Source of the DNA: Chloroflexota bacterium
GTDB lineage: Bacteria > Chloroflexota > Anaerolineae > DTLA01
Reading direction: 5' to 3'
Assembly (NCBI GenBank): GCA_014874485.1
Contig: JADBJK010000049.1
Span: 1-50,378 of the forward strand
DNA: 50,378 nt
The notes under the pieces were generated by a model that saw only the letters and a program-made list of their open reading frames with translations, searched no databases and had not been told where the DNA came from. The translations under genes were made by a program, and so were the position numbers. Positions 239 to 44,868 of this stretch are shown piece by piece (the first letter of the stretch is position 1; each line of letters begins with the position of its first letter).

Positions 239-1051
239 ATGGCCCTTAAGGGAAATCTAAAGGACTTCGGCGTCGCCCAATTGCTGAACCTGATTCACAT
301 CGCCCGCAAGACAGGCGCCCTTTCCGTCCGAAGCAATGGACTCTCGGCCACGCTCTATTTCCGCGAGGGGAAACTGCTCGGCGCGTACCAGGACAGCAGA
401 GACGACAGCCTCCTGGCGCTGCTCCAGCGCGCGGGCAAGATCACCGCCCAGCAGGCGGAGAACGTCCTCTCCCGTGCCGAGACGCGCACCGACAAGGAAA
501 TCGGCCTGCTTCTCCTGCACAACAACTACGTAACCCAGAAGGACATCCTCCAGGTGGTGCGGGCGGCGTCGCTGGAGACCGTTTACGCCATCTTCGCCCT
601 CACCGACGGCGCGTTTCAGTTTGACCCCAACCGCATGCTCCCCCAGGAGAAGATCGGCGTCCCCATAGACCTGGACAACGTGATCATGGAGGGCACCCGC
701 CGCATGAAGGAGTGGGAGCAGTTGCAGGCGGAGTTGCCCGACCTGGACGTGGCCCTGAAGTTCACGGATCGGCCGGGCACGTCCCTCAAGAACATCAGCC
801 TGAGCGTGGAGGAGTGGCGGGTGATTTCCTTCATCAGCCCGCGCAACACGATTCGCCAGATCGCGCAGTACATCGGCCTGAGCGAGTTTCAGATTCGGAA
901 GATTGTGTACGGCCTGCTGACGGCGGGCCTGGTGGAACTGGTGCGGCCCGAAGGGACTGCGCCGCCCGGCCTGCCGGGTATCCCGCCATCGCCGGCGGTC
1001 AAGCGGGGGGTGATCTTGCGCTTGATTGACAAAATTCGCCGCCTGAGCTGA
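239..1051 (+). CDS. PATAN-domain (DUF4388) signalling protein
   Basis: The 270-residue product opens with the pattern of PATAN/DUF4388 domains (residues about 3-110): LKDFGVAQLLNLIHIARKTG followed by a short beta-rich segment (LYFREGKLLGAYQD). A second part, about residues 185-240, has the look of a winged-helix domain (EEWRVISFISPRNTIRQIA). PATAN domains occur in bacterial signalling proteins and often sit beside MglA/Ras-like GTPases, and the next gene, 17 bp downstream, is such a GTPase. Probably a cytoplasmic adaptor or effector. The start ATG follows a GAGAGAAG ribosome binding site. The domain call is good; the role in this pathway is inference. Confidence 0.8.
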   Translation: MALKGNLKDFGVAQLLNLIHIARKTGALSVRSNGLSATLYFREGKLLGAYQDSRDDSLLALLQRAGKITAQQAENVLSRAETRTDKEIGLLLLHNNYVTQKDILQVVRAASLETVYAIFALTDGAFQFDPNRMLPQEKIGVPIDLDNVIMEGTRRMKEWEQLQAELPDLDVALKFTDRPGTSLKNISLSVEEWRVISFISPRNTIRQIAQYIGLSEFQIRKIVYGLLTAGLVELVRPEGTAPPGLPGIPPSPAVKRGVILRLIDKIRRLS

Positions 1052-1068: not shown

Positions 1069-1605
1069 ATGCAAGCGGTCAAAATGGTTATCACGGGCCC
1101 ATTCAACGCGGGCAAGACGGAGTTCATCAAGACCATCAGCGAGATTGACGTTGTTTCCACCGAGCGGCGAATTTCGGACGAAACGCGCGCCACTAAGGAA
1201 GAGACCACCGTCGCCATGGACTTCGGCCGCATCACCATTGACGAGGATTTGGTCCTCTTCCTGTTCGGGACGCCCGGGCAGAAGCGGTTTGACTTCATGT
1301 GGGAGATTCTGTCCGAGGGGATGCTGGGGTTCATCGTGCTGGTGGATTCGGTGAGGCCCGAGACGTTCCGCGAGGCGCGCCGAATCTTGGACGTGTTCCG
1401 CACCTACGCGCCCGCGCCCTACGTGGTGGCGGCGAACAAGCAGGACCTGCCCGACGCCTGGAGCCCGCAGGACATCCGCATTGCCCTGCGCGTGGACCCC
1501 AACGTCAAGGTGGTGCCCTGCGTGTCCACCGACAAAGAGAGTGTGAAAAGCGTCCTGCTGGAACTCCTGTACACGATTCTGGAGAACTCCAAGGACGAAG
1601 AATAG
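1069..1605 (+). CDS. Small Ras-like/MglA-type GTPase
   Basis: A 178-residue P-loop GTPase with nothing but the G domain. Visible motifs are the P-loop GPFNAGKT (residues 10-17), the switch II region with GTPGQKRF, and the NKQD base-specificity motif (around residue 123). A Gln follows the GTPG motif. Proteins like this pair with PATAN and roadblock-type partners in bacterial polarity and signalling systems; the PATAN gene directly upstream fits that. A CGGAGGA ribosome binding site precedes the ATG. No membrane segment is seen, so it is cytosolic. The regulated process is unknown. Confidence 0.88.
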   Translation: MQAVKMVITGPFNAGKTEFIKTISEIDVVSTERRISDETRATKEETTVAMDFGRITIDEDLVLFLFGTPGQKRFDFMWEILSEGMLGFIVLVDSVRPETFREARRILDVFRTYAPAPYVVAANKQDLPDAWSPQDIRIALRVDPNVKVVPCVSTDKESVKSVLLELLYTILENSKDEE

Positions 1606-1619
1606 CGAGGGGCCAGCGA

Positions 1620-2408
1620 TTGGGTTCCATCGTAACACGCCAAGGGATCGTGCATTATGAGACCCAGGGGAGCGGCCCGCCGGTCATCCTGCTGCACGGG
1701 TGGCTCGGTTCCTGGGGCTATTGGCTCAACACGATGGAGGCCCTGTCCGATTCCTTTCGCACATACGCGCTGGACTTCTGGGGGTTCGGGGAATCCGGCA
1801 AGCCCCGCAGCGGCTACGAGGTGGACGACTTCGTGAGCCTGGTGGATCAGTTCATGGATCGGCTGGGGATTCCGGCGGCCCCCGTGGTCGGGCACTCCAT
1901 GGGGGGGACCGTGGCGCTGAAGTTGGCCATGGAGTACCCCCAGCGGGTTGCGAAGGTGGCAGTCGTCGGCTCGCCGATCAACGGCCGCTCGTTGAGCCTG
2001 CCGCTCCGGCTGGCGGGGCGCAAGCCGGTGGCGTATCTGGTCTGGCACATGCCGGCGCTGCTGCGCTGGGGGATACGCACCTTCTCGCCGCGGCTGGCTC
2101 ACGACTGGCGCAAATGGTACGACATGATCATGGGCGACCTGTCGCGCACGACGCTGGAGGCGTTCCTGTCCAGCATCCGCTCGCTGCGCCTGACAGACCT
2201 GACGCCCAGGTTGGGCGAGGTGCGGGTGCCGGTGCTGGGGTTCTACGGGCAGCGGGACCTTATCGTGGACCCGCGGCAGGGGGGCGTGCTGTTGCGCGGC
2301 GCTCCGAAGGCAGATCTGGTCCGGCTTGAGCATTGCGGGCATTTTCCGATGCTGGATGACCCGAACCTGTTCAACAGCCGGTTGAGGCAGTTTCTGGCAT
2401 CGCATTGA
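1620..2408 (+). CDS. Alpha/beta hydrolase (first of two paralogues)
   Basis: A 262-residue alpha/beta-hydrolase-fold enzyme. The best start is TTG at 1620, just after a GAGG ribosome binding site; the open frame extends further back but overlaps the GTPase gene. The oxyanion/HG motif LLHGWLGSWGYW is near residue 25, the nucleophile is in GHSMGG, the acid in GQRDLIVDP, and the histidine in EHCGHFPMLD, so the triad is complete. The substrate is unknown; esters or lipid-like molecules are typical for the fold. It is clearly related to the hydrolase at 15880-16659 (shared HGWLGSW and HFPMLD segments), and the two bracket the signalling cluster. Confidence 0.85.
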   Translation: MGSIVTRQGIVHYETQGSGPPVILLHGWLGSWGYWLNTMEALSDSFRTYALDFWGFGESGKPRSGYEVDDFVSLVDQFMDRLGIPAAPVVGHSMGGTVALKLAMEYPQRVAKVAVVGSPINGRSLSLPLRLAGRKPVAYLVWHMPALLRWGIRTFSPRLAHDWRKWYDMIMGDLSRTTLEAFLSSIRSLRLTDLTPRLGEVRVPVLGFYGQRDLIVDPRQGGVLLRGAPKADLVRLEHCGHFPMLDDPNLFNSRLRQFLASH

Positions 2409-2459: not shown

Positions 2460-3170
2460 ATGGACGAGGAAAAAGCCACCCACGAAGAGCAGCACGGTCA
2501 AGAGGAGCAGCACACGCACGAGCATGCGGAGCACGAGCACGGCGAGGGGGCCCAGCCTCGGTACTACTACGGCAACAAGATGGCCCGCATCTACCTGCAG
2601 GCGCTGGAGGACGTGCTCGGCAAGAACGGCGTGAACGCGCTGCTCAACTTGGCGAAACTGAAGCACCTCATCAATAACTACCCGCCCAACAACTTTGAGC
2701 GCGAGTTCCCGTTTGAGGACTTCGCGGCGCTCAACCAGGCGCTGGACGACGTGTACGGGCCGCGCGGCGGGAGGGGCCTGGGCATCCGCGGCGGCCGCGC
2801 CACGTTCAAGTACGTGCTCAAAGAGTACGGCGCGATGCTCGGCATCAGCGACCTGGCCATGCGCCTCATGCCGCTGGGTATGAAACTGCGGCTGGGTCTG
2901 GGCGTCATGGCCGAGACCTTCAACCGCTCCAGCGACCAGGTGGTGCGCCTGGAGGAGGACAACGAGCACTTCTACTATCATATCGTGCGCTGTCCGGTGT
3001 GTTGGGGCCGCAAGTCGCAGACGCCCATCTGCTACGTCGCCCTGGGCCTGTTGCAGGAAAGCCTGGCTTGGGTAACGGGCGGCAAGAACATGTCGGTCGT
3101 GGAGACGACCTGCATCGCCAAGGGCGATCCCACGTGCTGTTTCGTGATTGACAAGAAACCGTTGGACTAG
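2460..3170 (+). CDS. V4R (4-vinyl reductase-like) domain protein with His-rich N-terminus
   Basis: A 236-residue protein. Residues 1-35 are very rich in His and Glu (HEEQHGQEEQHTHEHAEHEH) and look able to bind metal. The C-terminal half is a V4R domain with conserved cysteines: CPVC, then PICYVALGLLQESLAWVTG, then VVETTCIAKGDPTCCFVI. V4R domains bind small hydrophobic ligands in regulators such as the XylR/DmpR group and occur in BchJ-like proteins. The cysteines and His tail suggest a metal site. A GGAGGA ribosome binding site fixes the start. It could be a ligand sensor or a carrier for a product of the neighbouring acyl reductase; that link is inference. Confidence 0.8.
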   Translation: MDEEKATHEEQHGQEEQHTHEHAEHEHGEGAQPRYYYGNKMARIYLQALEDVLGKNGVNALLNLAKLKHLINNYPPNNFEREFPFEDFAALNQALDDVYGPRGGRGLGIRGGRATFKYVLKEYGAMLGISDLAMRLMPLGMKLRLGLGVMAETFNRSSDQVVRLEEDNEHFYYHIVRCPVCWGRKSQTPICYVALGLLQESLAWVTGGKNMSVVETTCIAKGDPTCCFVIDKKPLD

Positions 3171-3320: not shown

Positions 3321-3375
3321 ACCCATGGGGAGGAGCGCGCAAGACGGTGGGCAATCTGGAGGGTGCCAGAGGGCC

Positions 3376-4626
3376 ATGATACGAATAGTCATTCGCGATC
3401 GGACGAAGATACCCCCCTTCAACGAGCCTGCGCGGGATTTGCGCGTGCTCAATAAGCCCCTGTGGTTGCACCAGCGCGACGTCCTCGCCCGCTACTGCCT
3501 CACCGAGGTGGAGGTGGAGAGCGGCGACCCGCTCCCGCCCATCCGCGAGGAATGCATCGTCTACCGCGATAACCTGTTCTTTGACGAAGACTTCGTCCAC
3601 GAGTTCCTACGCCTGGCGAAGGCCCGTCGGAAGCCCTGCCAGGTGGCCTTTTCGCCCGACGACAAGGCCATCGTCGTCCACGCTTTGCCTCTGCAGGACA
3701 ACATCCACCGCCAGGGCGACGTGTACGTGGCCGACCTGTGGTACTACCCCAACGGGCCGACCGACGAGACGCCGGAGCCGGTGGTCGTGGACACCATGGC
3801 GCGGGAAATCGGATACTATCACATCCCCACGTACATGGCCTCGGAGAAGGGGGAACTGGTCTTCTGGGTGCCGCTGCGGCCGTTCCTGTCCATAGAGAAC
3901 TGGGTGCACATCTTCATGGCCAATTCGCCCTTCGGCATCTTCAGCATGGGGGCGAAGATGGAGCACGAGGTAACGCGGTTCTCCAAAGCGGCGCGCGTGC
4001 TGTTGCGCTCGCTGCTGGAGCGGCGGCAGTTCCTGTCGTCATCCAGGATGATCCGCGTGGGGCGCAACGTGCAGATTGACCCCACGGCCATCGTCCAGGG
4101 GCCGGCCATCATCGGCGACAACAGCACCATCGGCCCGGGGGCGGTGGTAACCAACTCCATCATCGGCAGCAACGTCAACGTCATGCAAGGCTGCCAGGTG
4201 ATGCTCAGCGTCGTCAGCGACGGGTGCTACCTTCCCTTCCGCGCGGCGCTGTTCATGACCACGCTTATGGAGAACTCCATGGTGGCCCAGAACGCCACGC
4301 TCCAGTTGTGCGTGGTGGGGCGCCATTCGTTTGTGGGGGCGAACACGGTCTTCACCGATTTCAACCTGCTGGGGAAACCGCTGCGAACGATGCACAAGGG
4401 CCAGCCCCAACCTGTGGGCTTGCCCGTCCTCGGCGGGTGCGTGGGGCACAACTGTCGCATCGGCGCGGGGATGGTGATCTACCCGGCGCGCACCATTGAG
4501 TCCGACACCGTGCTCATTCGCGCAGAAGGCCGCGGCGTGATCTCGGACAACGTGCTGTTTGAGCAGAGCGACCACGTGCGGCTGGGGGAGGAGCACCTTC
4601 ACCCTCAGAAGTACACGAGGGATTGA
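3376..4626 (+). CDS. Left-handed beta-helix (hexapeptide-repeat) protein, nucleotidyltransferase/acyltransferase-like
   Basis: A 416-residue protein starting at the ATG at 3376, which has a GGAGGG site upstream; an earlier in-frame ATG at 3325 would add 17 unlikely residues. The N-terminal 220 residues contain PARDLRVLNKPLWLHQRDVL and resemble a GlmU-like sugar-nucleotidyltransferase fold only loosely. Residues about 225-390 are hexapeptide repeats (IDPTAIVQGPAIIGDNSTIG, then further turns ending GAGMVIYPARTI), the left-handed beta-helix of many acyl- and nucleotidyltransferases. The stop is one base before the start of the acyl-reductase homologue, so the two are probably co-translated. The substrate cannot be told from sequence. 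Confidence 0.7.
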   Translation: MIRIVIRDRTKIPPFNEPARDLRVLNKPLWLHQRDVLARYCLTEVEVESGDPLPPIREECIVYRDNLFFDEDFVHEFLRLAKARRKPCQVAFSPDDKAIVVHALPLQDNIHRQGDVYVADLWYYPNGPTDETPEPVVVDTMAREIGYYHIPTYMASEKGELVFWVPLRPFLSIENWVHIFMANSPFGIFSMGAKMEHEVTRFSKAARVLLRSLLERRQFLSSSRMIRVGRNVQIDPTAIVQGPAIIGDNSTIGPGAVVTNSIIGSNVNVMQGCQVMLSVVSDGCYLPFRAALFMTTLMENSMVAQNATLQLCVVGRHSFVGANTVFTDFNLLGKPLRTMHKGQPQPVGLPVLGGCVGHNCRIGAGMVIYPARTIESDTVLIRAEGRGVISDNVLFEQSDHVRLGEEHLHPQKYTRD

Positions 4627-4627
4627 G

Positions 4628-5680
4628 GTGGAACGTTTCGGATTCATCGTGCACCCTCTGGACGTTCGGAGGGACGTGGCTCGGCGGTTCCGCCTTTTGA
4701 GCCGCTTGCCATTGCGGTGGCTGGATTTCCTGTCGGGCTACTTTCCGCCCGTCTATCTTTGGCACGTTACTGGCATCCGTACTGCACAGTTGGTAGAGGC
4801 GGAAGGGTGGCTTGTGGCCTGTCCGCTCACGCCGAGGGCGATGACGCAGTTCCCGCTGCGGCGGGTGTACCGGCAGATCATCCGCGCGGGGCAACTGGCC
4901 GAGCGGCTGGGTGCGGGCATCGTGGGTCTGGGGGCGCTGACCTCGGCAGTGGGCGACGCGGGCGAGACGGTCGCGCGCGCACTGAACGTGCCCGTTACCA
5001 CGGGCAACAGTTACACGGTGGCCGTTACGTGCCTGTCGGTGCAGGCCATCGCCCAGTCCATGGGCAAGCCGCTGGGCGACCTGTGCGTGGCGGTGCTGGG
5101 CGGGACCGGGTCCATCGGCAGCGCGTGCGCCCGCCTGCTGTGCCGCAAGGTGGGGCACCTGCGCGTGGTGGGACGCGATGCCAATGCCGTGCAGCAGTTG
5201 GTGCACGCGCTGGGAGCGGTGGCCTCCGGCACGGTGTCGGGCGCGACGGACCTGACGGCGCTGCGGGATGCCGATATCGTCGTCAGCGCGACGAACTCGG
5301 CGGGGCCGCTGATTCGGCCGCAGCACCTGCGGCCGGGCGCTGCCGTGTACGACCTGGCGCTGCCGCCCGATGTCTCGGCGGCGGTGCGGGAGATGGGGCT
5401 GAATGTAGCGGTCTATTCGGGCGGCGATGTGATCGTGCCGGGGACCCCGGACTTCGGGATTAACTTCGGATTGCCGCCCGGCCACGCCTACGCGTGCATG
5501 GCCGAGACAATTGCACTGGCCCTGGAGGGCCGATACGAGAGTTACACGCTGGGGCGGACCATCGCCCCCGAGCGGGTGCTCACAATTTGCACCATCGCCG
5601 AGCGGCACGGCTTCCGCCCGGCGCCCCTTCGCGTGAGGGGTGAACTTGTGGAAGTGCCTTCTTGTGCAGGAGTGGTATAA
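4628..5680 (+). CDS. Homologue of cyanobacterial long-chain acyl-[ACP] reductase
   Basis: A 350-residue protein read from GTG at 4628. It follows the cyanobacterial acyl-ACP reductase (AAR) from end to end: FGFIVHPLDV at the start, GLGALTSAV, VTTGNSYTVAV, a Rossmann loop VLGGTGSIGSA (residues 156-166), DIVVSATNS, and HAYACMAETIALALEGRYES. The cysteine in that last motif (Cys290) aligns with the catalytic Cys of the Synechococcus enzyme, Cys294 from memory. AAR reduces fatty acyl-ACP or acyl-CoA to fatty aldehyde with NADPH. No aldehyde-deformylating oxygenase gene is in the window, so the aldehyde would have another fate. The gene follows the beta-helix gene with a one-base gap, and its stop codon overlaps the next promoter. 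Family call firm, exact substrate open. Confidence 0.78.
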   Translation: MERFGFIVHPLDVRRDVARRFRLLSRLPLRWLDFLSGYFPPVYLWHVTGIRTAQLVEAEGWLVACPLTPRAMTQFPLRRVYRQIIRAGQLAERLGAGIVGLGALTSAVGDAGETVARALNVPVTTGNSYTVAVTCLSVQAIAQSMGKPLGDLCVAVLGGTGSIGSACARLLCRKVGHLRVVGRDANAVQQLVHALGAVASGTVSGATDLTALRDADIVVSATNSAGPLIRPQHLRPGAAVYDLALPPDVSAAVREMGLNVAVYSGGDVIVPGTPDFGINFGLPPGHAYACMAETIALALEGRYESYTLGRTIAPERVLTICTIAERHGFRPAPLRVRGELVEVPSCAGVV

Positions 5681-5681
5681 T
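5676..5681 (+). promoter_or_regulatory. Extended -10 promoter before the response regulator
   Basis: TATAAT preceded by TGG (extended -10) lies across the stop codon of the acyl-reductase gene. No good -35 at 16-18 bp is visible. It would start transcription near 5688, about 40 nt before the response-regulator ATG, and could separate expression of the kinase genes from the upstream cluster. Confidence 0.5.
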
Positions 5682-5729
5682 AGGAACAGGCAGGTGCGCT
5701 TGTAGCCTAAGGTGTTAGGGAGGATAGAC

Positions 5730-6641
5730 ATGCCGAAGGACAGGATTCTGATTGTAGAGGACGACCGCGACATCTCAAGCCTGCTCGCCTTCTATTTTGA
5801 GTCCCAGGGATACGAGGTGCTGGCTACTACGCACGGCAGCGACGCCCTGGAGATTTCGCGGCGCAAATTGCCCAACCTGGTGATTCTGGACATCAAACTT
5901 CCGGACATTGACGGCTACGAGGTGTGCCGCCGCCTGCGCACCAACCTGCGCACGAGCCACATCCCCATCATCTTCCTCACCCAGAAGGACGAGCGGGCCG
6001 ACCGCATCGCCGGCCTTCAACTGGGCGCGGACGACTACATCACCAAGCCCTTTGACATGGAAGAACTGCACCTGCGGGTGAAGAATGCCTTGCGCCGGGC
6101 CAGTTACGAGAACCTGACGAACCCCGTTACCGGCCTGCCCAGCGGGCGGCTCATAGAAGAGCAGTTGAAGTCCCTGATCCAGCGCGACAACTGGACGGTG
6201 CTCTACATCGGCGTGTGCGGGTTGCGCGCCTTCAACGACCTGTACGGGTTCGTCGCGGCCGATGATGTCCTGCGCTTCGCGGCGATGGTGCTGGGGGAGG
6301 CCATTGATGCGCTGGAGGGCGGGCAAGACTTCGTGGGCCACATCGGCGGCGGCGACTTCATCATCATCACCACGCCCGACCGAGAAGCGACGTTGCGAGA
6401 ACGCATCACGACGCGCTTCAACGACGAGGTCAAGAGTTTCTACAATTTCAAGGACCGCGAGCGCGGCTACCTTCTGGTCAAGGACGAGACGGGACGAGAG
6501 AAGAAGGTCGCGCTCATGATGCTGGCCGTGGGAACCGTGCACGGCGGGGCGGGCCGCTTCAGCGACATCCGCGAGATCACCGAGGTGGCCTCGGATGCGC
6601 GCCGCGCCGCCGCCATCGCCCAATGCGGGGAGATCGGCTAG
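5730..6641 (+). CDS. Response regulator: REC plus degenerate GGDEF domain
   Basis: A 303-residue protein starting at the ATG at 5730, after an AGGGAGGA site. Residues 1-120 are a receiver domain with the acidic pocket EDD (10-12), phospho-acceptor Asp54 (VILDIKLPD) and the Lys motif DDYITKPFD. Residues about 130-290 are a GGDEF fold (NPVTGLPSGRLIEEQL), but the signature reads GGGDF instead of GGDEF, so cyclase activity is doubtful; such domains can bind nucleotide or act as protein contacts. It lies directly before the giant hybrid kinase, its likely partner. Confidence 0.88.
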   Translation: MPKDRILIVEDDRDISSLLAFYFESQGYEVLATTHGSDALEISRRKLPNLVILDIKLPDIDGYEVCRRLRTNLRTSHIPIIFLTQKDERADRIAGLQLGADDYITKPFDMEELHLRVKNALRRASYENLTNPVTGLPSGRLIEEQLKSLIQRDNWTVLYIGVCGLRAFNDLYGFVAADDVLRFAAMVLGEAIDALEGGQDFVGHIGGGDFIIITTPDREATLRERITTRFNDEVKSFYNFKDRERGYLLVKDETGREKKVALMMLAVGTVHGGAGRFSDIREITEVASDARRAAAIAQCGEIG

Positions 6642-6678
6642 CAGCATTCCCCCCAAAACTACGCAGACGGAGTTGCGG

Positions 6679-9600
6679 ATGAACATTTCCAGAGGGAGAT
6701 TGAGAGCGCAGCAGGTCGTTGTCTGGCTGTACTGGTTTGGCTGGCTGTACGCGCTGATTTCTTCCCTGGCCAATCAGGGCCGAGTGGGACTCTGGACTCT
6801 TGGGTTGCTTGTCGCACAGGTGCTCCTGCTCCGCATCCGCGCGGTTCGGGCCTTCCGCGAGCGCCATGCCTTCCTGGGGCTGCTTGCCGTTGAGGTGCCG
6901 TTTTCCGTCGCGGTCTTCTACCTGACGGGCGGGCGCACCAGCCCTGCGTCCATTCTGCCGTATTTCCTCGTGGGCCTGGGTGCAGCGCACCTACCGCTCG
7001 TGGCCCTGGCGGCATACGTCGCGGGCATCGCCATTGCGTTCCTGCTGCCGCTCGTTCCGCCCCTGTGGCCATCGGGCGAGCCAATTCGCTGGTCTTATCT
7101 GATCACGGGCCTGTTCAGTTACTACGCGCTGGCGTACATCGTCCGCTACCTGGTGCAGGCGGAACAGCGGGAGCGCGCCGAACACCTGGAAAGCCAGGAG
7201 GTGCTGGCCCAGTCTCGCAGGCGCGTCAACGAACTCACCGCCTTGCAGCGCATCAGCCGCCAACTGAGCAGCACGCTGGAACTGGACAAACTCCTGCCCA
7301 TGATCGTGGAGGAGACGGTGGCCGCGACGCCCGCTACCCATGGGGCCTTGCTCCTGGTGGATGAGAGCACGGGCAAACTGGCGCTGCGCGAAGCCTACGG
7401 CTACACCCCCGACCAGATCATGGCCTACAGGGGGTTGGACTTTGACTCCACCAAGACCGTCGTGGGGCGGGTGCGCGAGACCGGCCAGCCGGCCCTCATC
7501 CCCGACGTGTCGCAGGACCCGGACTACTTCGCGCTGGTGCCGGAGACGCGCTCCGAGGTGGCGGTCCCCATCCGCATCGGCAACGTGGTGGTGGGCGTGC
7601 TGAACCTGGAGGCGCGGACCCCGCAGGCGTTCACGGACGCCGACGTGCACTTCCTGGAAGCCATCGCAGACCAGGCGGCGCTGGCACTGGCCAACGCGCA
7701 ACTGTACACCGCCACCGACCGGACGCTGGCGCGGCGCGTGGAAGAACTGGGCGCCATGAGCGAGATCACGCGCGAGTTGGCCAGCACGCTGGATTTGCAC
7801 CGCGTGCTGGATTTGCTCATCGCCCGCGCCATCCAGGCCACCGGCGCGACCTCGGCGTTGGCGGGCCTGTACGACCCCGAGACCGATACGCTGGAACTCC
7901 TGGCGCAGCGCAACTATCCCACGCTCATCACGCCCGAAGGGGATATGCAGCGGCCCGCGCCAGGGGGCATCACCATGCGCGTGGTGCGCACCGGCAGGCC
8001 CGCGCTGGTCCCCGACGTAACCAAAGACCCGGACTACGTGCCGGCCCTGCCCGATACGCGCTCCCAGTTGACGGTCCCCATCCGTTACGAGAACCAGGTG
8101 CTGGGCGTGCTGAACCTGGAGAGCAACCGTCCTGGGGCCTTTACGACGGACAACCTGGCGTTTGTGGAGAACCTGGCGAACCAGGCGGCGGTGGCCGTCC
8201 GCAACGCGCGGCTCTACGACCAGGAACTCCGCCGCTTCCAGGAGATTTCGCTGCTGAACGAGGTGGGCCAGGCGATTGCGGGCAGCCTGGACTTGGAGTC
8301 CACGCTTCAGACCATCCTGGAGAGCGCGCGCCGCCTGCTGGACTACTACGTGGCGGAAGTGAACCTGTGGGACGAAGACCAGGGCGTGATGGTTACGTGC
8401 GCCGCGGCGGGCGAACCGGGCTATCTGACCCAGGTGGGCACCACCTACACGCCCGACCAGGGGTACACCGGCTGGATCACCCGCAACCAGAAGCCCCTGT
8501 TTATCCCCGACACGCGGGCGCGCACCGACGTGCGGCCCCGATTCAGCCTGGAGGAGGCCCCCTACCGCTCGTATATAGGCGTGCCGTTGATGAAGGGGCA
8601 GAAACTGGTCGGCACGCTGGAGATGGCGGCAGACCGCCCCAATGCGTTCTCGCAGCAGGACCTGCGCCTGCTCCAGGCCATTGCAGGCCAGGCCGCCGTG
8701 GCCATTGAGAACGCGCGCCTGTACGAGGAGACCCAGGCCCGCGTGGACGAGATGGCGGGCCTGTTCCAGATCGCGGGCATCGTTACCTCCACGCTGGACA
8801 TGGAGCAGATGCTGCAGGAGACGCTGCGCAAGGCGGCCGACCTGCTGAAGGCCGAGAAGATGGCGCTGCTGCTGTACAACGAGACGACGAACCGCCTGGA
8901 GGCGCGGGCCAGCGCAGTTGTCGGCTTGCCGCCCGACGAGGCCGAGGCCCTGTCCATTGACGCGCAGACGCCCGACTTCGCCTACGGCGTGTTCCGCACG
9001 GGCCGCCCGTTCCGCTCGTCGGACGCGCCGAACGACAAGCGTATCATCCCGGCCTACCGCCCGCTGATTCAGAAGTACGGGTTCCGCACGGTGCTTTCGG
9101 TGCCCCTGCGGACTCAGGACGTCGTCCTGGGCGAACTCCACGCGGGCAACAAGCGCGATGGCACGTTTTCCGCCGAAGACGAGCGGCTCCTGGCGACCAT
9201 CGCCGCGCAACTGGCGGCTGGCATCCAGAACCTGCGCCTGTACCAGCGCACCGACGAGCAACTGCGGCACCAGGTGGACCAGATGACGGCGCTCCAGCGC
9301 ATCACGCGCGAACTCAACGCCACGCTGGAACTGGAGCGCATCCTGGAGGTGGTGATCACCGAGGCCATCCGCGCCACCCGCGCATCTCACGGCAACATCG
9401 CCCTGCTGGACGTGGAGAGCGGCAAGTTCCACATCGCGGCGTACAAGGGCTACACCGAGGAGGAAGAGGCCATCCTCAAGAAGATGGTGCTGGGCGACGG
9501 GCCCAGCGTCGCCGAGGATGCCATCCGCTCGGCCAAGTCCGTCATTGTGGCCGACGCGCGCAAGGAGACGCGCCCGGTCTGCATCCGCAAGGGTACCCTG

Positions 9601-12600
9601 TCCGCCGTGGCTGTGCCCATTCTGTACGAGGGGGCCGTGGCGGGCGTCATCAGCCTGCGCTCCATGGAAGTCCAGGCCTTTGACGAGGACACGGTCAGGT
9701 TCCTGGAAGCGCTGGCCAACCAGGCGGGCGTGGCCATCGGCAACGCCTGGCGGTATCAGGAGCAGGTGCGCCTTGGGGCCAGCCTGAGCCGTCGCGCCGA
9801 GCAGTTGCGCAGCCTGCTGGAAATCGGCAACGCGCTCCGCATGAACCTGTCGCTGGAAGAGGTGCTGGATCAGATCGTCTACGCCATTCCCGACACGACG
9901 GGGTTCAACCTGGCGCTGTTGAGTGTGGTGGAGGGCGATCCGCCCTACCTGCGGCGCGTGGCGGCGGCGGGGCTGCCCATCGCCGTCTTTGAGGAGATGC
10001 GACGGGTGCGCCAGCCGCTGGAGCGGTTCACCCGCATCATGCGCGACGAGTACCGCATCAGCCAGTCCTACTTCTTCCCGCACCAGAAGGCGCACGAGTG
10101 GCAGGAGGGCCTCCACGTCTATACCCCGCCAGCGCCAGAGGAGGAGGAATGGGAGCAGGGCAAATGGCATCCCGAAGACATGCTCATCATTCCCCTGCAC
10201 TCGTCGTCGGGCGAGATTCTGGGCCTGCTGAGCGTGGACGAGCCGCGCGACGGGCGAGTGCCCACCCGCGCCGTGGTGGAGGCGCTGGAGATTTTCGCCA
10301 ACCAGGCGGCCATCGCCATTGAGAACGCGCAACTGTACGAGAAGCAGTTGGCGCAGAGCCAACTGATGGCCCGCCGCGCCGAGCAACTGAGCAACCTGCT
10401 CAACTTCGGCAACGCCCTGAAGGCCGAGATGAGCCTGGACCAGGTCTGCCGCGAAATCGCCGAGGCCGCGCACAAGCAGATGGGGTATCGCCTCGTGGCG
10501 CTGAACCTGATTGACGGCGAAGACCCCAGCCTGGTGCGGGTGGTGGCGACGGCGGGCCTGGGCGAGGATGCGGCGGTTTCGTCCGCGCCCTTCCCCCGCT
10601 CCGCGCTGGAAAGCCTGCTGGACGAGCGGTACCGCATCAGCCAGTCGTACCTCATCACGGGCGACGGCAAGGGCGCACTGGAAGGGAGCGGCGCGCCCGT
10701 GTACGTGCCCGATTTGGGCGAGCGCGAGCCAGGCGAGTGGCAGCCGACCGATGCCCTCATCGTCCCGCTGACCGGCAGCAAGGGACACATCGGCTACCTG
10801 TCGCTGGATGACCCCGTGAGCCGCCGCAGGCCCGAACCGGAAGACATCGCCGCGCTGGAGGTGTTCGCCAACCAGGCGGCCATCGGCATTGAGAACGCCA
10901 TGCTCTACGAGAACGTCATCTCGCGCATGCGCGAAATCTCGGCCATGTACGACGTGAGCCGTGGGTTGGTCTCCACGCTGGACCCGGAGGAGATGCTGGA
11001 GGACGTGCTGAGCGCGCTCCAGCAGTCGGCAGGGTACGACAACTGCGCATTCCTGCTGCTGGACCCGGTTACCGATGACCTGGTGGTGCGCGCCGCCGTG
11101 GGGTATATGGAGGACATCAAGGGCATGCGCATCCAGGTGGGGCGCGAGGGGATCACCGGCTGGGTGGCCGAGAACAAGCAGCCGCTGGTGGTGCCGGACG
11201 TTACCCAGGACGCGCGTTACATCCAGAAGGATTCCCAGACCCGCTCGGAAATCGCCGTGCCCATGATGGTGGGCAACCGCCTCATCGGCGTCCTGGACGC
11301 GCAGAGCAGCCAGTCGGATGCCTTCGGCGAGCGGGATTTGCGCATCCTGTCGGCGGTGGCCGCGCAGACGGCGGTGGCCATTGAGAACAGCCGCCTGTAC
11401 GAGGAGACGCGCCGACGCGCCACCCAGTTGGAGGCCACCAGCGAGGTCGGGCGGCGCATCGCGTCCATCCTGGGCCTGGACGAACTGCTGACCGAAGTGG
11501 TGGAACTGGTGCACGAGACGTTCAACTACGACCACGTGCACGTGTTCCTGATTGACCCCGACACGCAGGAGGCCGTGTACCGCGCGGGCAACGGCTCTGT
11601 GGGCCGCGCTATCCGCGAAGAAGGGCTGCGGCTCAAGGTGGGCCAGGAAGGGATGATCGGCCACGCCGCCAGCACCCGCCAGCCCCTCATCGCCAACGAC
11701 GTAACCAAGGACCCGTACTACGTGCCGCACCCGCTGCTGGCCGACACGCGCTCGGAGTGCACCGTCCCGCTGGTCATCGGCGACCGCGTCATCGGCGTGC
11801 TGGACGTGCAGAGCCACGAGTTGGACGCCTTCGGCGACGATGACCTGTTCCTCTTGCAGACGTTTGGCGACCAGTTGGCTGTGGCCATTGAGAACGCACG
11901 CCTGTTTGAGGAATCCGAGCGGCGCATTCGCTCGCTGGCCGTGCTGAACCGCATCGGCCAGACCATCAGTTCCACGCTGGACTTGCCGGCGATCTTGGAA
12001 GAAGCGTATCAGCAGATCGCCCAGTTGATTGATGCGTCCAACTTCTACATCGCCTTCTACGACGAGGAGAATGACGAGGTATCCTTCCCGCTGGCGATTG
12101 AGGAAGGCGAGCGCGTAACCTGGCAGAGCCGTCGCGGGACGCGCAGCCTGACCGAGCACATCATCCGCACGCGGCAGCCGCTGTTCCTGCCCGAGAACGT
12201 GGTGGAGGTCGCCACCGAGATTCTGGGCAATCCGCCGGTGGGCAGGCCCGCGCTGTCGTGGATGGGCGTGCCCATGATCGTGGGCGAGAAGGTCATCGGC
12301 GTGATCGCCGTGCAGAGTTACGCCAAGCCGCGCGCCTACTCCGAAGAAGACCTGAACGTGCTGCAGACCATCGCCGCGCAGGTGGCCACGGCAGTGCAGA
12401 ACGCCCGCCTGTTCCAGGAGACGCGCCAGAGCGCCGAGGAGATGCGCCTGCTGTACGACCTGGGCGTGGCCCTCAGCGAGACGCTGGAACTGGACCGGGT
12501 GCTCGCCCTCATCGCCCAGAGCGCCCTGCAACTCACCCACACGCAGATCGCCACGCTGTACGTCAAGGGAGCGGGCGAGGACGAACTGACCTTCAAGGTG

Positions 12601-15450
12601 GTGTCAGACCCGCCCGAATGGGCGCAGCAGGTTGAGGTCCACAAGCCGCGCGCCAAGGGGCTGACGGCGCAAATCCTGAAGTCGGGCAAGCCCCTCGTCC
12701 TGGACGACGTGGCGCAGGATGACCGCGTTAGCCCGGTGATCAAGCAGATGGGCATCCGGTCCATGCTGGGCGTGCCGGTGCAAGTGGAAGGCCAGACCAT
12801 CGGCGTGCTGTTCGCAGGTTCCACCGAACCCCACCACTTCGGCGACAGGGACGTGTCGCTGGTTAACTTCCTGGTGAACCAGGCTTCGCGCGCCATCCGC
12901 AACGCCCAGTTGTACGAGGAGATCACGCGCCTGAACTCGGAACTGGAGGCGCGTGTGGAGCAGCGCACGCGCGAACTGGCCAAGGCCAACGAGGAACTCA
13001 CCATTGAGCGCGACCGCACCGAGGCCCTGTACCGCATCGCCCGCGAGTTGAGCCAGACGCTGGACCTGAACCGCGTCATGAGCCGCGCCCTGCAACTGCT
13101 CAAGGAATCCATCGGCATGAAGCGGGGTTCCATTCTTCTGCTGGATCAGCAGACGGGCAAACTGGTGCACCGCGCATCGCTGACACGGGGCACGATGGAG
13201 CAGGGCGAGGCCTCGCGGACATTCAGTGTGGGCGTTGGACTGGCCGGGTGGGTGCTCCAACACCGCCAGGCCGTCATCGTCGCTGAGGTAACGAAGGACA
13301 AACGCTGGATCACAGCGGCCGGCGAGGAGACGGTCCGCTCGGCGCTGTCGGTGCCGCTCCAGGCCGGCGAGGACATCCTCGGCGTGCTGACGCTGGCCGA
13401 CCCGCGGCCCGATTACTTCAGCGAGGTGCACCTGAAGATGGTAACCGCCGCGGCGACGCAGATCGCCACGGCCATCGGCAACGCCGAACTGTACCGCCTC
13501 ATCCAGGAGCAGGCGGACCGGCTGGGCGACATGTTGCGCATGCAGCAGACCGAAGCATCCAAGACCCGCGCCATCCTGGAAGGCATCGCCGACGGAGTGG
13601 TGGTTACCGACACCGATGGGCGCATCATCCTGTTCAACGACGCCGCCGAGCGCATTCTGGGCGTGCCGCGCAGCGTGGTGATGAACGAGAACGTGCACGC
13701 GCTGCCGGCCACGCTGTCGGCGGGGGCCGAGATGGCGGCGCGCGGCCTGGCCGCTGTGAGCCGCTGGGTGGGCATCGCGTCGCGCCAGGGGCCGCAGATG
13801 GAGGAGCGCTTCGCCGTGGGCAACAAGGTGGCCAGCGTGCGCGTGGCTCCGGTGATGATGGGCGACGAGTTGCTGGGCACGGTGGCGCTGTTCCGCGACA
13901 TCTCCAAGGAGGTGGAGGCCGAGCGCGTCAAGAATGAGTTTATCTCCACCGTGTCCCACGAGTTGCGCACGCCCATGACCTCTATCAAGGGCTACACCGA
14001 CCTGCTGTTCATGCAGGCGGCCGGCCCCATCACCGACGCCCAGCGCAAGTTCCTGACCGTCATCAAGTCCAACGCCGACCGCCTGGCGACGCTGGTGAAC
14101 GACCTGCTGGATATCTCGCGGATTGAGACGGGCCGCATCCGCCTGGACCGCCAGCCCACCGATGCCGCCAAGGTCATCCAGGACGTGGTAACGGCGCTGC
14201 GCACCAAGTCGGAGGAGAAGCAACTGACGGTTACGGTCAAGGTCAAATCGCCGCTGCCGCCGGTGTACGCCGACCGCGACCGCCTGACCCAGATTCTCAC
14301 CAACCTGGTGGACAACGCCTGTCGGTACACGCCCGCGGGCGGGAAGATCACCGTGTCGGCGCGGCGCGTGTCCGACAAGGTGCAGATTGACGTGGCCGAC
14401 ACCGGCATCGGCATCTCGCCCGAGGACCAGAAGAAGGTCTTTGACCGCTTCTATCGGGCCGACCATCCGGTGGTGCAGGAGACGGGCGGAACCGGCCTGG
14501 GCCTGGCCATCGTGAAGTCGTTCGTGGAGATGCACGGCGGCACCATCTGGCTCAAGAGCGAGTTGGGCAAGGGGTCCACCTTCAGTTTCACCATGCCCAT
14601 CGCCGTATTTGACCAGCCGCTGCCGCCGCGAGAAGAGGTTACGGAAGAGGCCGAACCCATCGGCGCGGGCAAGCGCATCCTCGTGGTGGAGGACGAGCCG
14701 GACATCGCCAACCTGGTGGCGCACCACCTGACCGAAGAAGGGTACGAGGTGCTCACCTGCGGCCGGGGCGATGAGGTCATGGACATCGCCCTGCGCGAGA
14801 AGCCGCACCTCATCACGCTGGACATCCGACTGCCGGGCAAGGATGGGTTTGAGGTCCTCAGTGAGTTGAAGGCGAACCCGGAAACCACAGACATCCCCGT
14901 CGTCATCCTGTCCATCGTGCCCGACCCCGACCGGGCCTACCGTCTGGGCGCGGTGGACTACCTGGGCAAGCCGGTGGATGAGAAGCGGCTCGTCAACACG
15001 GTGCACTCCATCCTGTTCGCCCATGACCTCGTGCTCATCTGCGACGACAACGAGGACACGCAGAAACTGCTGCGCGAGGTGCTGGAGCGCAATGGGTTCG
15101 TGGCGCGGGCGGTGTCGGACGGCCGCCAGGTGTTGGCTGTGGCCGAGAGGGAGCGCCCCGGCCTCATCCTGCTGGACCTGAAGATGCCCGGACTGGACGG
15201 CTATTCCGTGCTGGAGCAACTGAAGCGGAACCCGAACACCGCCGACATACCGGTCATCGTGATGACGGCCAGCATCGCCGAGGACAAGGTCAAGCGCGAG
15301 CGGGCGCTGGCCCTGGGGGCCACCAAGTTCATGACCAAGCCCTTCTCCATCCCGGAATTGGTGGAGGAGGTGCGAAAGACGCTGGAGGCCAAGGCCAAGC
15401 CGAACGAAAAGGCGAAGCCGGACGAAGGCGCTGCCGCCAGCGCAGAATAG
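6679..15450 (+). CDS. Giant membrane hybrid histidine kinase with twelve GAF domains
   Basis: A 2923-residue sensor kinase read from the ATG at 6679. Residues 1-165 hold about six hydrophobic segments. Twelve GAF domains follow in tandem, at roughly 7230, 7740, 8240, 8745, 9270, 9790, 10370, 10930, 11420, 11935, 12440 and 13020, joined by coiled linkers ending in AIENARLYEE-like motifs. Then come a PAS domain (13560-13910), HisKA with the phospho-accepting His2427 in VSHELRTP, HATPase_c with N, G1 and G2 boxes (DNACRYTP, DTGIGIS, GTGLGLAIVKS), and two receiver domains with Asp2715 and Asp2833. GAF6 and GAF7 form a sub-pair with insertions and a shared YRISQSY motif, a sign of internal duplication. 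Ligands of the GAF domains are unknown; no chromophore-binding Cys motif was recognised. All kinase and receiver residues look intact. Confidence 0.95.
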   Translation: MNISRGRLRAQQVVVWLYWFGWLYALISSLANQGRVGLWTLGLLVAQVLLLRIRAVRAFRERHAFLGLLAVEVPFSVAVFYLTGGRTSPASILPYFLVGLGAAHLPLVALAAYVAGIAIAFLLPLVPPLWPSGEPIRWSYLITGLFSYYALAYIVRYLVQAEQRERAEHLESQEVLAQSRRRVNELTALQRISRQLSSTLELDKLLPMIVEETVAATPATHGALLLVDESTGKLALREAYGYTPDQIMAYRGLDFDSTKTVVGRVRETGQPALIPDVSQDPDYFALVPETRSEVAVPIRIGNVVVGVLNLEARTPQAFTDADVHFLEAIADQAALALANAQLYTATDRTLARRVEELGAMSEITRELASTLDLHRVLDLLIARAIQATGATSALAGLYDPETDTLELLAQRNYPTLITPEGDMQRPAPGGITMRVVRTGRPALVPDVTKDPDYVPALPDTRSQLTVPIRYENQVLGVLNLESNRPGAFTTDNLAFVENLANQAAVAVRNARLYDQELRRFQEISLLNEVGQAIAGSLDLESTLQTILESARRLLDYYVAEVNLWDEDQGVMVTCAAAGEPGYLTQVGTTYTPDQGYTGWITRNQKPLFIPDTRARTDVRPRFSLEEAPYRSYIGVPLMKGQKLVGTLEMAADRPNAFSQQDLRLLQAIAGQAAVAIENARLYEETQARVDEMAGLFQIAGIVTSTLDMEQMLQETLRKAADLLKAEKMALLLYNETTNRLEARASAVVGLPPDEAEALSIDAQTPDFAYGVFRTGRPFRSSDAPNDKRIIPAYRPLIQKYGFRTVLSVPLRTQDVVLGELHAGNKRDGTFSAEDERLLATIAAQLAAGIQNLRLYQRTDEQLRHQVDQMTALQRITRELNATLELERILEVVITEAIRATRASHGNIALLDVESGKFHIAAYKGYTEEEEAILKKMVLGDGPSVAEDAIRSAKSVIVADARKETRPVCIRKGTLSAVAVPILYEGAVAGVISLRSMEVQAFDEDTVRFLEALANQAGVAIGNAWRYQEQVRLGASLSRRAEQLRSLLEIGNALRMNLSLEEVLDQIVYAIPDTTGFNLALLSVVEGDPPYLRRVAAAGLPIAVFEEMRRVRQPLERFTRIMRDEYRISQSYFFPHQKAHEWQEGLHVYTPPAPEEEEWEQGKWHPEDMLIIPLHSSSGEILGLLSVDEPRDGRVPTRAVVEALEIFANQAAIAIENAQLYEKQLAQSQLMARRAEQLSNLLNFGNALKAEMSLDQVCREIAEAAHKQMGYRLVALNLIDGEDPSLVRVVATAGLGEDAAVSSAPFPRSALESLLDERYRISQSYLITGDGKGALEGSGAPVYVPDLGEREPGEWQPTDALIVPLTGSKGHIGYLSLDDPVSRRRPEPEDIAALEVFANQAAIGIENAMLYENVISRMREISAMYDVSRGLVSTLDPEEMLEDVLSALQQSAGYDNCAFLLLDPVTDDLVVRAAVGYMEDIKGMRIQVGREGITGWVAENKQPLVVPDVTQDARYIQKDSQTRSEIAVPMMVGNRLIGVLDAQSSQSDAFGERDLRILSAVAAQTAVAIENSRLYEETRRRATQLEATSEVGRRIASILGLDELLTEVVELVHETFNYDHVHVFLIDPDTQEAVYRAGNGSVGRAIREEGLRLKVGQEGMIGHAASTRQPLIANDVTKDPYYVPHPLLADTRSECTVPLVIGDRVIGVLDVQSHELDAFGDDDLFLLQTFGDQLAVAIENARLFEESERRIRSLAVLNRIGQTISSTLDLPAILEEAYQQIAQLIDASNFYIAFYDEENDEVSFPLAIEEGERVTWQSRRGTRSLTEHIIRTRQPLFLPENVVEVATEILGNPPVGRPALSWMGVPMIVGEKVIGVIAVQSYAKPRAYSEEDLNVLQTIAAQVATAVQNARLFQETRQSAEEMRLLYDLGVALSETLELDRVLALIAQSALQLTHTQIATLYVKGAGEDELTFKVVSDPPEWAQQVEVHKPRAKGLTAQILKSGKPLVLDDVAQDDRVSPVIKQMGIRSMLGVPVQVEGQTIGVLFAGSTEPHHFGDRDVSLVNFLVNQASRAIRNAQLYEEITRLNSELEARVEQRTRELAKANEELTIERDRTEALYRIARELSQTLDLNRVMSRALQLLKESIGMKRGSILLLDQQTGKLVHRASLTRGTMEQGEASRTFSVGVGLAGWVLQHRQAVIVAEVTKDKRWITAAGEETVRSALSVPLQAGEDILGVLTLADPRPDYFSEVHLKMVTAAATQIATAIGNAELYRLIQEQADRLGDMLRMQQTEASKTRAILEGIADGVVVTDTDGRIILFNDAAERILGVPRSVVMNENVHALPATLSAGAEMAARGLAAVSRWVGIASRQGPQMEERFAVGNKVASVRVAPVMMGDELLGTVALFRDISKEVEAERVKNEFISTVSHELRTPMTSIKGYTDLLFMQAAGPITDAQRKFLTVIKSNADRLATLVNDLLDISRIETGRIRLDRQPTDAAKVIQDVVTALRTKSEEKQLTVTVKVKSPLPPVYADRDRLTQILTNLVDNACRYTPAGGKITVSARRVSDKVQIDVADTGIGISPEDQKKVFDRFYRADHPVVQETGGTGLGLAIVKSFVEMHGGTIWLKSELGKGSTFSFTMPIAVFDQPLPPREEVTEEAEPIGAGKRILVVEDEPDIANLVAHHLTEEGYEVLTCGRGDEVMDIALREKPHLITLDIRLPGKDGFEVLSELKANPETTDIPVVILSIVPDPDRAYRLGAVDYLGKPVDEKRLVNTVHSILFAHDLVLICDDNEDTQKLLREVLERNGFVARAVSDGRQVLAVAERERPGLILLDLKMPGLDGYSVLEQLKRNPNTADIPVIVMTASIAEDKVKRERALALGATKFMTKPFSIPELVEEVRKTLEAKAKPNEKAKPDEGAAASAE

Positions 15451-39080: not shown

Positions 39081-40193
39081 TCAGGCGGATGGGGCGGGTT
39101 TGGCCGAGAGATTTCTTTGACCATCCCACAATTCATAGAAATAATGCGCAAATACCTTTGCCAGTGCAACCGGCACGGCATTACCTATCTGGGTGGAGAT
39201 TTGCTCGTAGCTGCCGTAAAACCGGTAGGGATCTGGAAATGTTTGCAAACGGGCTGCCTCTCTCGGCGTTATTGCACGGTCTGATATGGGGTGAGCAAAT
39301 CTCCCTTTTGTAAAATTGGTGCAGCCAGTGGTCAGGGTGTTGGAAGGTCTGTCAAAAGCCAGCCTGCCGTAGACGTCGTGATACCCGACGTTTCTGCCAT
39401 TTCTGTGGCAATCTAGTTGCAACTCTATCGGCAGGCTCTCTCTACTGCCTCCGTTGTGTGGTATATGCCTCAAGCGCTCTAGGCTCAAAGGGGTGTGCTT
39501 CCGTGCCTTGTGTAGGGGATCAGACTTGCTCTCCTCTCCCGGGCCCAAGTCTTGTAGGCCAGCAAAAGCATCCCTTACCGTAAGCCACTCCCTTTTTCCC
39601 AACCGAGTAGCCTCTTTAGGCGAAGCGTGCGTGGGATCCGGTATCCTAACTTGTATACCGAGTCTGGTGCCCAACAATATGAAGCGTTTACGGAATTGCG
39701 GCACACCGTAATCTACAGCATCTACGATGGCGGGATCGGACACCCTGTAGCCGAATTTCTCCAAATCGTCGACCAATTTGTCTAGAATGCCCGGATTTTG
39801 CTTTAGCCCCGGCACATTTTCTACAAACAGGAAGACAGGAAGTAATACCTCAACAAAACGAATGGCTTCCAGTACCAGCGAAGCCCTCTCGTCAGCATTT
39901 CTGTTTCTATAACGATTTTGCCTACTAAAAGGCTGACAGGGGGCACACACACTCAAGACCGTAAGTTGGCCACTCCCAAGTTTGCACCGTTCCATCATCT
40001 CTTCGGGCCGTATATCCCGGATGTCTTCCACATAAAGGATGACGTCCGGGTGATTTAGGCGGTACGTCTGGGCAGTAACAGGATCGAATTCTACTGCCGC
40101 CAATACTTTGAACCCTTCGGCTCTAAATCCGGTCGTCACCCCTCCACACCCGGAAAACAAATCTATCATTGTCGGCATAGAATCCGGCTTCAT
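39081..40193 (-). CDS. C5-cytosine DNA methyltransferase
   Basis: A 370-residue m5C methyltransferase starting at 40193, where its ATG overlaps the glycosylase stop by 4 bp. Motif I is MIDLFSGCGGVTTGF, motif IV has Cys86 in SVCAPCQPFSRQ, motif VI is FLFVENVPG, motif VIII YGVPQFRKRFILLG, and motif X ISTQIGNAVPVALA; the target-recognition region lies between VIII and IX (about residues 225-310). It transfers methyl groups from SAM to cytosine in a short DNA site that cannot be predicted here. The last codons (SAKPAPSA) are GC-rich like the host, unlike the rest of the gene. Probably protects self DNA in the operon with HerA, NurA and glycosylase. Confidence 0.95.
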   Translation of the reverse strand: MKPDSMPTMIDLFSGCGGVTTGFRAEGFKVLAAVEFDPVTAQTYRLNHPDVILYVEDIRDIRPEEMMERCKLGSGQLTVLSVCAPCQPFSRQNRYRNRNADERASLVLEAIRFVEVLLPVFLFVENVPGLKQNPGILDKLVDDLEKFGYRVSDPAIVDAVDYGVPQFRKRFILLGTRLGIQVRIPDPTHASPKEATRLGKREWLTVRDAFAGLQDLGPGEESKSDPLHKARKHTPLSLERLRHIPHNGGSRESLPIELQLDCHRNGRNVGYHDVYGRLAFDRPSNTLTTGCTNFTKGRFAHPISDRAITPREAARLQTFPDPYRFYGSYEQISTQIGNAVPVALAKVFAHYFYELWDGQRNLSAKPAPSA

Positions 40194-40861
40194 ATGGTTC
40201 CCTGCCCCGAAAGCAAATTTTTGAAATACGAGCACTGATCAGACAAGGGACATGCATTGCATTTGGGCTTACGAGCTCTACAAATCAACCTTGTGAAATC
40301 CAAAAGGTTTTCGGCGGACAAGCCGACGTTTGCCTCTGACAGAAGCGGTAAGAGGTTCCATAGTTCTCGAGAACCTTTGGTCATATGTCCCATTTCCAGA
40401 CCTGTAAACCGAGAAACAAAACGTAGAACGTTTACATCGGCCGGAACCAATTTCTGACCGTAAGCAAATATCAGGATGGCAGTAGCAGTGTATTTTCCTA
40501 TTCCCGGGACTTTAAGCAAGCTCTCAAAGTCGGCCGGTATCTCCCCATTGTGATTATCACAAACATAACGTGCGGCTTTTATCAGATAAGGAACCCGCTT
40601 GGATAACCCCAGGGGGCGCAACACTTCTCTCAATTCATTTTCGTCTGCAAGAGCGAGTGCCTCAATTGTCGGGTACTTTGAGGCAATCTTTTCAAAGTGA
40701 TCGGCCACAATATCGGTGCGGGTACGGACGAGTAACATTTCGGCCAGAAATATCCGGTAGGGCGTTCGATATTTCCGCCACGGCAGCTCCGTTTCCGCAA
40801 TTCTATGCTTTGATAACTCGGCACCGGCCTTCAAGAGGTACGGGAAATTTTCTGCGCTCAT
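40190..40861 (-). CDS. MIG-type HhH-GPD DNA mismatch (T/G) glycosylase
   Basis: A 223-residue HhH-GPD protein. It starts like MutY and MIG enzymes (TELPWRKYRTPYRIFLAEML), has the helix-hairpin-helix KVPGIGKYTATA with Tyr124, catalytic Asp142 in VPADVNVLRFV, and a 4Fe-4S cluster motif with Cys194, 201, 204 and 210. Endonuclease III has Lys and MutY Ser at the Tyr124 place; Tyr is the mark of the archaeal MIG thymine glycosylase (Tyr126/Asp144), which is encoded beside an m5C methyltransferase. It probably removes T from G/T pairs made by deamination of 5-methylcytosine. It overlaps both neighbours by 4 bp (ATGA), so all are coupled. Confidence 0.85.
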   Translation of the reverse strand: MSAENFPYLLKAGAELSKHRIAETELPWRKYRTPYRIFLAEMLLVRTRTDIVADHFEKIASKYPTIEALALADENELREVLRPLGLSKRVPYLIKAARYVCDNHNGEIPADFESLLKVPGIGKYTATAILIFAYGQKLVPADVNVLRFVSRFTGLEMGHMTKGSRELWNLLPLLSEANVGLSAENLLDFTRLICRARKPKCNACPLSDQCSYFKNLLSGQGTI

Positions 40862-44621: not shown

Positions 44622-44805
44622 GAGGCTACCTCCACTTTACGTCATAGCGACGTGATGTGGGGCGGGCTTGCTATGTACCATATTCTCCAGTCTGCTGCGC
44701 GGAGGTTTTTCCGCATGAACCCGCCCACCGGATGCTGTGCGGTGAACACACTCCGTTTGGTGGGCGGTAAGCCGCACGATGCATCCCGGTCTCTTTTCCG
44801 GCTCA
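44622..44805 (-). promoter_or_regulatory. Structured 5' leader of the herA operon
   Basis: From the predicted start near 44799 the transcript has about 178 untranslated bases. On the minus strand a stem is formed by CCGCCCACC (44767-44759) and GGTGGGCGG (44729-44721), next GCGGA/TCCGC (44714-44699) with an AAAACC loop, and last ACGTC/GACGT (44653-44639) near the ribosome binding site. A 63-codon open frame on the plus strand here is not credible. The leader may control the operon, but no known riboswitch is recognised. Confidence 0.5.
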
Positions 44806-44834: not shown

Positions 44835-44868
44835 GGGCTTTGACCCCCAACTTCATCAAGTGCCATCC

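Follow-up and report, generated by a model that had tools for sequence, protein, structure and literature searches.

A standalone acyl-thioester reductase homologue of Chloroflexota and its association with a putative degenerate paralogue

Introduction

Reductases of the acyl-ACP reductase (AAR) type have been studied for the synthesis of biofuels and amines, and the characterized members pass their insoluble aldehyde product to an oxygenase or to an aminotransferase. The window analyzed here, a stretch of 50,378 nucleotides from an Anaerolineae genome (assembly GCA_014874485.1, contig JADBJK010000049.1), encodes a homologue of these enzymes, hereafter F. This locus raises the question of which family F belongs to, with which protein it works and where an aldehyde made by it would go. 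A sequence-only reading of the window had described F as an AAR homologue outside cyanobacteria that produces fatty aldehyde for a pathway other than alkane synthesis. Among the best matches listed in the open-licence literature, no relevant description of an AAR-type reductase in Chloroflexota was found.

We propose, with a probability of about 0.6, that F is a thioester reductase working with a degenerate paralogue, hereafter Q, that the aldehyde is used for an envelope lipid or glycolipid, and that F is an optional cassette of the operon in which it lies. The genes of this operon in the window are as follows:

A, 239..1051, + strand: DUF4388 protein that opens the conserved operon (Pfam DUF4388)
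B, 1069..1605, + strand: small GTPase (Pfam ATP_bind_1, Arf, Ras), which we take to be MglA-like
C, 1629..2408, + strand: alpha/beta hydrolase (Pfam Abhydrolase_1), with a chosen start that is consistent with the alignment of its relatives
D, 2460..3170, + strand: V4R-domain protein whose presence in the operon varies (Pfam V4R)
E, 3325..4626, + strand: protein with an N-terminal half without assignment and a C-terminal left-handed beta-helix (Pfam Hexapep)
F, 4628..5680, + strand: standalone acyl-thioester reductase homologue of the AAR/PigE/TamH family, GTG start, 350 codons (350 aa)
G, 5712..6641, + strand: response regulator with GGDEF, 3' of F where kept (Pfam Response_reg, GGDEF)

Active site and family membership of F

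The open reading frame of F is intact and starts 1 base past the stop codon of the co-directional gene E. The enzyme pattern reported by the sequence-only reading was confirmed: the motif ACMAETIALALEG contains Cys290, which HMMER aligned to the catalytic Cys294 of Synechococcus AAR (PDB 6jzq; the entry 6jzz is the C294S mutant), and the nucleotide motif GxxGxxG is found as GGTGSIG at residues 158-164. Cys290 is conserved in every one of the 68 homologous rows of an alignment that was restricted to matches spanning at least 230 residues (leaving out L001, L012, L062, L083 and L084) and that counts some genomes twice through overlapping loci. In the same rows Glu293 is invariant, and two further positions are nearly so, Arg257 (67/68) and Asp259 (65/68), which are Gly and Asn in F; cyanobacterial AAR likewise lacks the equivalents of both. 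One of the omitted loci, L012, is a weak F-like sequence with 25% identity.

Over its whole length, F is 31% identical to AAR and 33% identical to PigE, and whole-length alignments were obtained in the PDB with PigE (4ppm, E 3e-34) and AAR (6jzq, E 7e-22). The fold was found on a homologue rather than on F itself: the F-half of a modeled Chloroflexia Q–F fusion superposes on AAR with Z 35.3 and 2.5 Å over 326 residues, and on the TAD domain of carmabin synthetase with Z 34.6. Thus the features of the AAR/PigE/TamH superfamily are found as the GxxGxxG motif and the catalytic cysteine in F and as the fold in the homologous fusion. Taken as a whole, the identities, the PDB matches, the conservation of Cys290 and the dN/dS ratio given below show that the family resemblance of F exceeds chance.

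Considerable differences were observed between F and cyanobacterial AAR (TIGR04058; PDB 6jzq, 6jzu, 6jzy, 6jzz), despite the shared fold, nucleotide motif and active-site cysteine. On the AAR equivalog TIGR04058, F scores about 82 bits (82.3) against a curated cut-off of 449.7, whereas its score on the PigE reductase half (NF053554, profile positions 1-346 of 837) is 183 bits, which is in turn below the 850 bits required for the full two-domain PigE. Of the four basic residues that dock aldehyde-deformylating oxygenase (ADO) on AAR, R79 and R118 are kept in F, and R73 and K80 are replaced by Pro and Gln, respectively. In a maximum-likelihood tree of 45 of 71 rows, from which 26 near-duplicate or redundant rows had been dropped, cyanobacterial AAR groups with two Chloroflexota sequences and apart from F; much of the backbone near F is weakly supported, and PigE lies on a long branch whose exact place is unsure. 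Because of the TIGR04058 score and the placing of AAR in the tree, F is ruled out as an AAR orthologue and, as judged from its sequence, falls within the broader AAR/PigE/TamH family of thioester reductases. The description as a thioester-reductase homologue outside cyanobacteria therefore stands, and the narrow AAR label does not. Closer kinship elsewhere, an issue that the sequence-only reading had itself raised, was found insofar as the reductase half of PigE is nearer than AAR, and this still places F within the same AAR/PigE/TamH family. The two Chloroflexota reductases that join cyanobacterial AAR in the tree (L061 7331-8404 and L077 3003-4151) form a line separate from that of F.

By analogy with the characterized relatives PigE and TamH, from which its thioester reduction is inferred, F very probably makes aldehydes from fatty acids bound to a carrier, and the aldehyde-forming chemistry of the earlier proposal is likely. 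According to excerpts of the respective reports, PigE uses a thioester intermediate, as shown by chemical complementation (PMC8341465), TamH and TamA act as partners to make amines from fatty acids, with a mapped cysteine in the TamH reductase domain (PMC9594044), and the catalytic cysteine of transaminase–reductase fusions has been mapped to C294 of AAR (PMC9594044, PMC10829540). The N-terminal reductase half of PigE, from the prodigiosin pathway (NF053554, PDB 4ppm), is the best family match of F, over its full length and with the catalytic cysteine; however, PigE continues into a C-terminal class III aminotransferase, whereas F stands alone. TamH, KecF and the thermophilic transaminase–reductase fusions contain the same reductase domain, but carry the aminotransferase fused in front, and no Q-like domain is described for them in the excerpts of PMC9594044 and PMC10829540. 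The carmabin TAD domain (PDB 9e4s, 9e56), which has the fold of the F-half and is the second-best structural match of Q, differs in that it is part of an amino-acid adenylation-type protein. Among the best matches listed in the open-licence literature none dealt with TAD, and those found for COG5322 concern aminotransferase fusions.

Association of F with the putative paralogue Q

Q is a protein of 300 residues, and 62 of the 69 genomes with F also carry it among 400 Chloroflexota genomes (Q in 66), at E-value limits of 1e-20 for F, 1e-30 for E and 1e-15 for Q; the three sets were taken as the same draw because their genome handles, given mainly for genomes with a match, agree. In 36 of the 400 genomes, picked from the lengths and positions of open frames, Q and F are fused: the F proteins of Chloroflexia are about 680-780 residues long, and their N-terminal half is Q. 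With these fusion genomes excluded, both proteins were found in 26 genomes, F only in 7, Q only in 4 and neither in 327, shared ancestry being ignored; counted per genus, and again uncorrected for ancestry, the numbers are 22, 6, 4 and 193. The two genes are also adjacent outside the phylum, in Sporomusa acidovorans, where Q (L011 7084-7986) is followed after 8 bases by a relative of F (L011 7995-9095). The genome of the window itself carries a standalone Q on another contig (G000:C56:117100-117996, to 117993 without the stop codon). A second, weak match to Q (E 0.012) lies on contig C112 of this genome. In plasmids, no match to Q was found.

Comparison of predicted structures provides a view of what Q may be. 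The model of Q (pLDDT 92.5, pTM 0.89) has as its best structural neighbors four AAR entries (Z 14.4-14.7, 243-248 residues aligned), which are followed by five carmabin TAD entries (Z 12.5-13.4) and then by a drop to 9.9 at the first unrelated row. The many periplasmic-binding and malic-enzyme rows that come after, with Z values of 9-10, were read as matches of common two-lobe folds. A direct hhalign comparison of Q with F is weak (probability 1.3%, E 0.039) and is collinear over 185 columns, pairing Asn261 of Q with Cys290 and Glu264 of Q with Glu293. Because this sequence-level comparison is weak, the homology of Q and F is drawn from fold, register and genomic linkage, and on the structural models Q appears to belong to the AAR fold superfamily. 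Among 36 aligned Q rows, the position of the cysteine is occupied by Asn (26), Asp (5) or Ala (5), a GxxGxxG-like string was found as a text pattern in a single row, and Glu264 is invariant (36/36). Q is thus probably a degenerate paralogue of AAR in which thioester reduction has been lost. The fusion of Q and F was modeled with pTM 0.62, a model that does not fix how its halves are arranged relative to each other. None of the 36 members scanned reached the cut-off of any Pfam or NCBIfam family, so the label of quinate dehydrogenase was rejected for Q; a literature search for quinate 5-dehydrogenase and Chloroflexi gave nothing relevant among the best matches listed under open licence. Similarly, no AAR-related pseudoenzyme was found in the open-licence literature.

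What appears to be new is the conserved association of F with a catalytically dead-looking paralogue, its inferred partner, whether fused, adjacent or apart, and the co-travel of the two across the phylum points to an undescribed two-protein pathway. The most serious alternative, which we nevertheless hold to be unlikely, is that F is an ordinary fatty-aldehyde-forming reductase needing no partner, that Q is an independent enzyme sharing the same lineages, and that the fusion arose by chance from a neighboring pair. Seven of the 69 F genomes, including the single-contig Thermoflexus-type genome G208, have no Q at E 1e-15, and a profile search at E 0.01, which contained no positive control, still found none in them; conversely, Q is present without F in 4 of its 66 genomes. 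In addition, cyanobacterial AAR, a monomer according to an excerpt of PMC9743570, works without any paralogue, and standalone Q has stable neighbors of its own, as set out below. Such independence is at odds with three concordant observations, namely that the genes are fused in one class, adjacent in another phylum and co-occurring where unlinked, and with the AAR fold that both proteins appear to have.

We return to the reading of F as a reductase partnered by Q, for which the following mechanism may be proposed. By comparison with its relatives, Cys290 of F would take the acyl group from a carrier protein or from CoA, and NAD(P)H bound at GGTGSIG would reduce the acyl-enzyme so that the aldehyde is released. 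Having neither a cofactor motif nor a catalytic cysteine any longer, Q probably does not act as a reductase; its more likely role would be to bind F, or to retain the acyl carrier or the aldehyde, which is insoluble, in the way that ADO serves cyanobacterial AAR. The aldehyde may then be destined for an envelope lipid or a glycolipid, and not for an alkane; this is the weakest step of the scheme. If this reading is correct, a degenerate companion of the same fold would represent a new way of handling an insoluble aldehyde.

Possible fate of the aldehyde

An alkane product was rejected for the genome of the window, since no ADO was found above the PF11266 cut-off: the best genome-wide score is 11.5 bits against a cut-off of 28, in a genome that is 95.7% complete, and the control search found Synechococcus. 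In this respect the absence of ADO noted in the sequence-only reading holds for the whole genome at this cut-off.

The surroundings of standalone Q suggest another direction. Among 30 standalone Q loci, comprising those returned by the search and that of the genome of the window, a MobA-like nucleotidyltransferase adjoins Q in 25 (the exceptions being L086, L094, L097, L100 and L105) and a PAP2 phosphatase follows Q in 24. In the genome of the window, the genes of Q and of the MobA-like nucleotidyltransferase overlap by 4 bases, and the PAP2 phosphatase gene is next. Envelope-lipid use is proposed because Q adjoins these nucleotidyltransferase and PAP2 phosphatase genes; as domain assignments, these neighbors hint at head-group or envelope-lipid chemistry, and both domains also serve non-lipid pathways. 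A more far-reaching version can be put forward tentatively, with confidence well short of even: F and Q may form a two-component acyl-thioester reductase, with one subunit a dead paralogue, for an undescribed aldehyde-derived envelope-lipid pathway in Anaerolineae, Chloroflexia and at least one genus of Bacillota, and the fused form may be the acyl reductase behind the wax esters or related alkyl lipids of Chloroflexus and Roseiflexus. If so, it would offer an entry point into the poorly known envelope lipids of Chloroflexota.

Three of the genomes searched, G238, G166 and G110, are presumably those of Chloroflexus aggregans, Roseiflexus RS-1 and Herpetosiphon aurantiacus. Fused copies occur in complete genomes that are presumably those of cultivable Chloroflexia, which would make the pathway testable. 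An alpha/beta hydrolase lies directly 3' of the Q–F fusion in Chloroflexus-type genomes (L052 8925-9722, with a 4-base overlap, and L081 6803-7585, 2 bases downstream), and the operon of the window likewise has an alpha/beta hydrolase.

An outright wax-ester function, in which F supplies fatty alcohol and the Q–F fusions are the acyl reductases of the wax-ester-making genera, seems improbable. The genomes taken to be those of Chloroflexus and Roseiflexus do carry Q–F fusions, which are candidates for the acyl reductase in these genomes, and both genera make wax esters according to an excerpt of PMC4400912. However, the WS/DGAT family PF03007 was detected in only 2 of 12 genomes searched, with 0 of 14 controls positive, and had no match in the genome of the window or in the Chloroflexus-type genomes searched, so that the suggestion of wax among possible products fails for the window as far as the known WS/DGAT synthase is concerned. 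The canonical fatty acyl-CoA reductase PF07993 does not discriminate, as it matches all 12 genomes and all 14 controls.

It is quite improbable that the aldehyde is transaminated to a fatty amine, as with PigE and TamH, by an aminotransferase encoded elsewhere. This would fit the best score of F, which is on PigE, and the plasmid-borne relatives of F, 13 of 16 of which match inside an annotated class III aminotransferase (the other 3 have no annotation there). It would also fit L060 6018-8567 of the Chloroflexota genome G145, in which a class III aminotransferase is fused before the reductase in the order of TamH and which scores 575 bits on PigE, below its cut-off. Yet no aminotransferase gene was recognized beside F in the operon examined, and the fused partner in Chloroflexia is Q.

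Operon context and proposed exchange of F

F follows E, with the GTPase and the hydrolase before it, in all nine Chloroflexota loci L002-L010, and all eight untruncated regions with standalone F (L042-L049) share the order A-B-C-(D)-E-F. G lies 3' of F in four of these nine loci and in five of the eight regions. In 400 Chloroflexota genomes, E and F were both found in 64, F only in 5, E only in 6 and neither in 325, counts that include Chloroflexia, in which E and F are far apart. Since the operon also occurs without F (L068, L070 and L073, and Chloroflexia that keep D-E-G or E-G), F is regarded as an optional member; conversely, F occurs without the operon in Sporomusa and as Q–F fusions. No acyl carrier or aldehyde-using enzyme was recognized beside F. 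These same occurrences of operon and F apart from each other make it very improbable that F belongs to a signaling operon (DUF4388, GTPase, V4R, response regulator) and serves to produce a signal derived from its aldehyde, for all that it lies co-directionally 1 base from E in an order conserved in every one of those regions.

Comparison with the nearest relative, L002, reveals the dynamics of this locus. Identity is 97.5-100% for A-E and 98% for G, and falls to 79% for F; dS is 0.11-0.16 for A-E, 0.32 for G and 0.70 for F; and the drop in DNA identity starts and ends approximately at the borders of the F gene (window 4610-5710). The simplest reading of this pattern would be a recombination event that replaced the F allele in either the lineage of the window or that of L002. 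Because dN/dS is about 0.2 against the L002 copy, F is under purifying selection. F may thus be an optional, exchangeable cassette inside an older signaling-type operon.

Other features of the window

Two further features were observed in the window. A single open reading frame of 2951 residues (6595-15450), whose start lies inside the preceding response-regulator gene, contains, by eye, GAF-like repeats and ends in histidine kinase and receiver-like sequence. In addition, the region 40001-45000 has a low G+C content (0.51-0.52, against 0.60-0.71 elsewhere) and contains genes for a HerA-type ATPase, for a 726-residue protein to which no Pfam family was matched, and for an HhH-GPD protein with a match to a PADLOC nicking-endonuclease model; it is possibly a defence or DNA-repair island.
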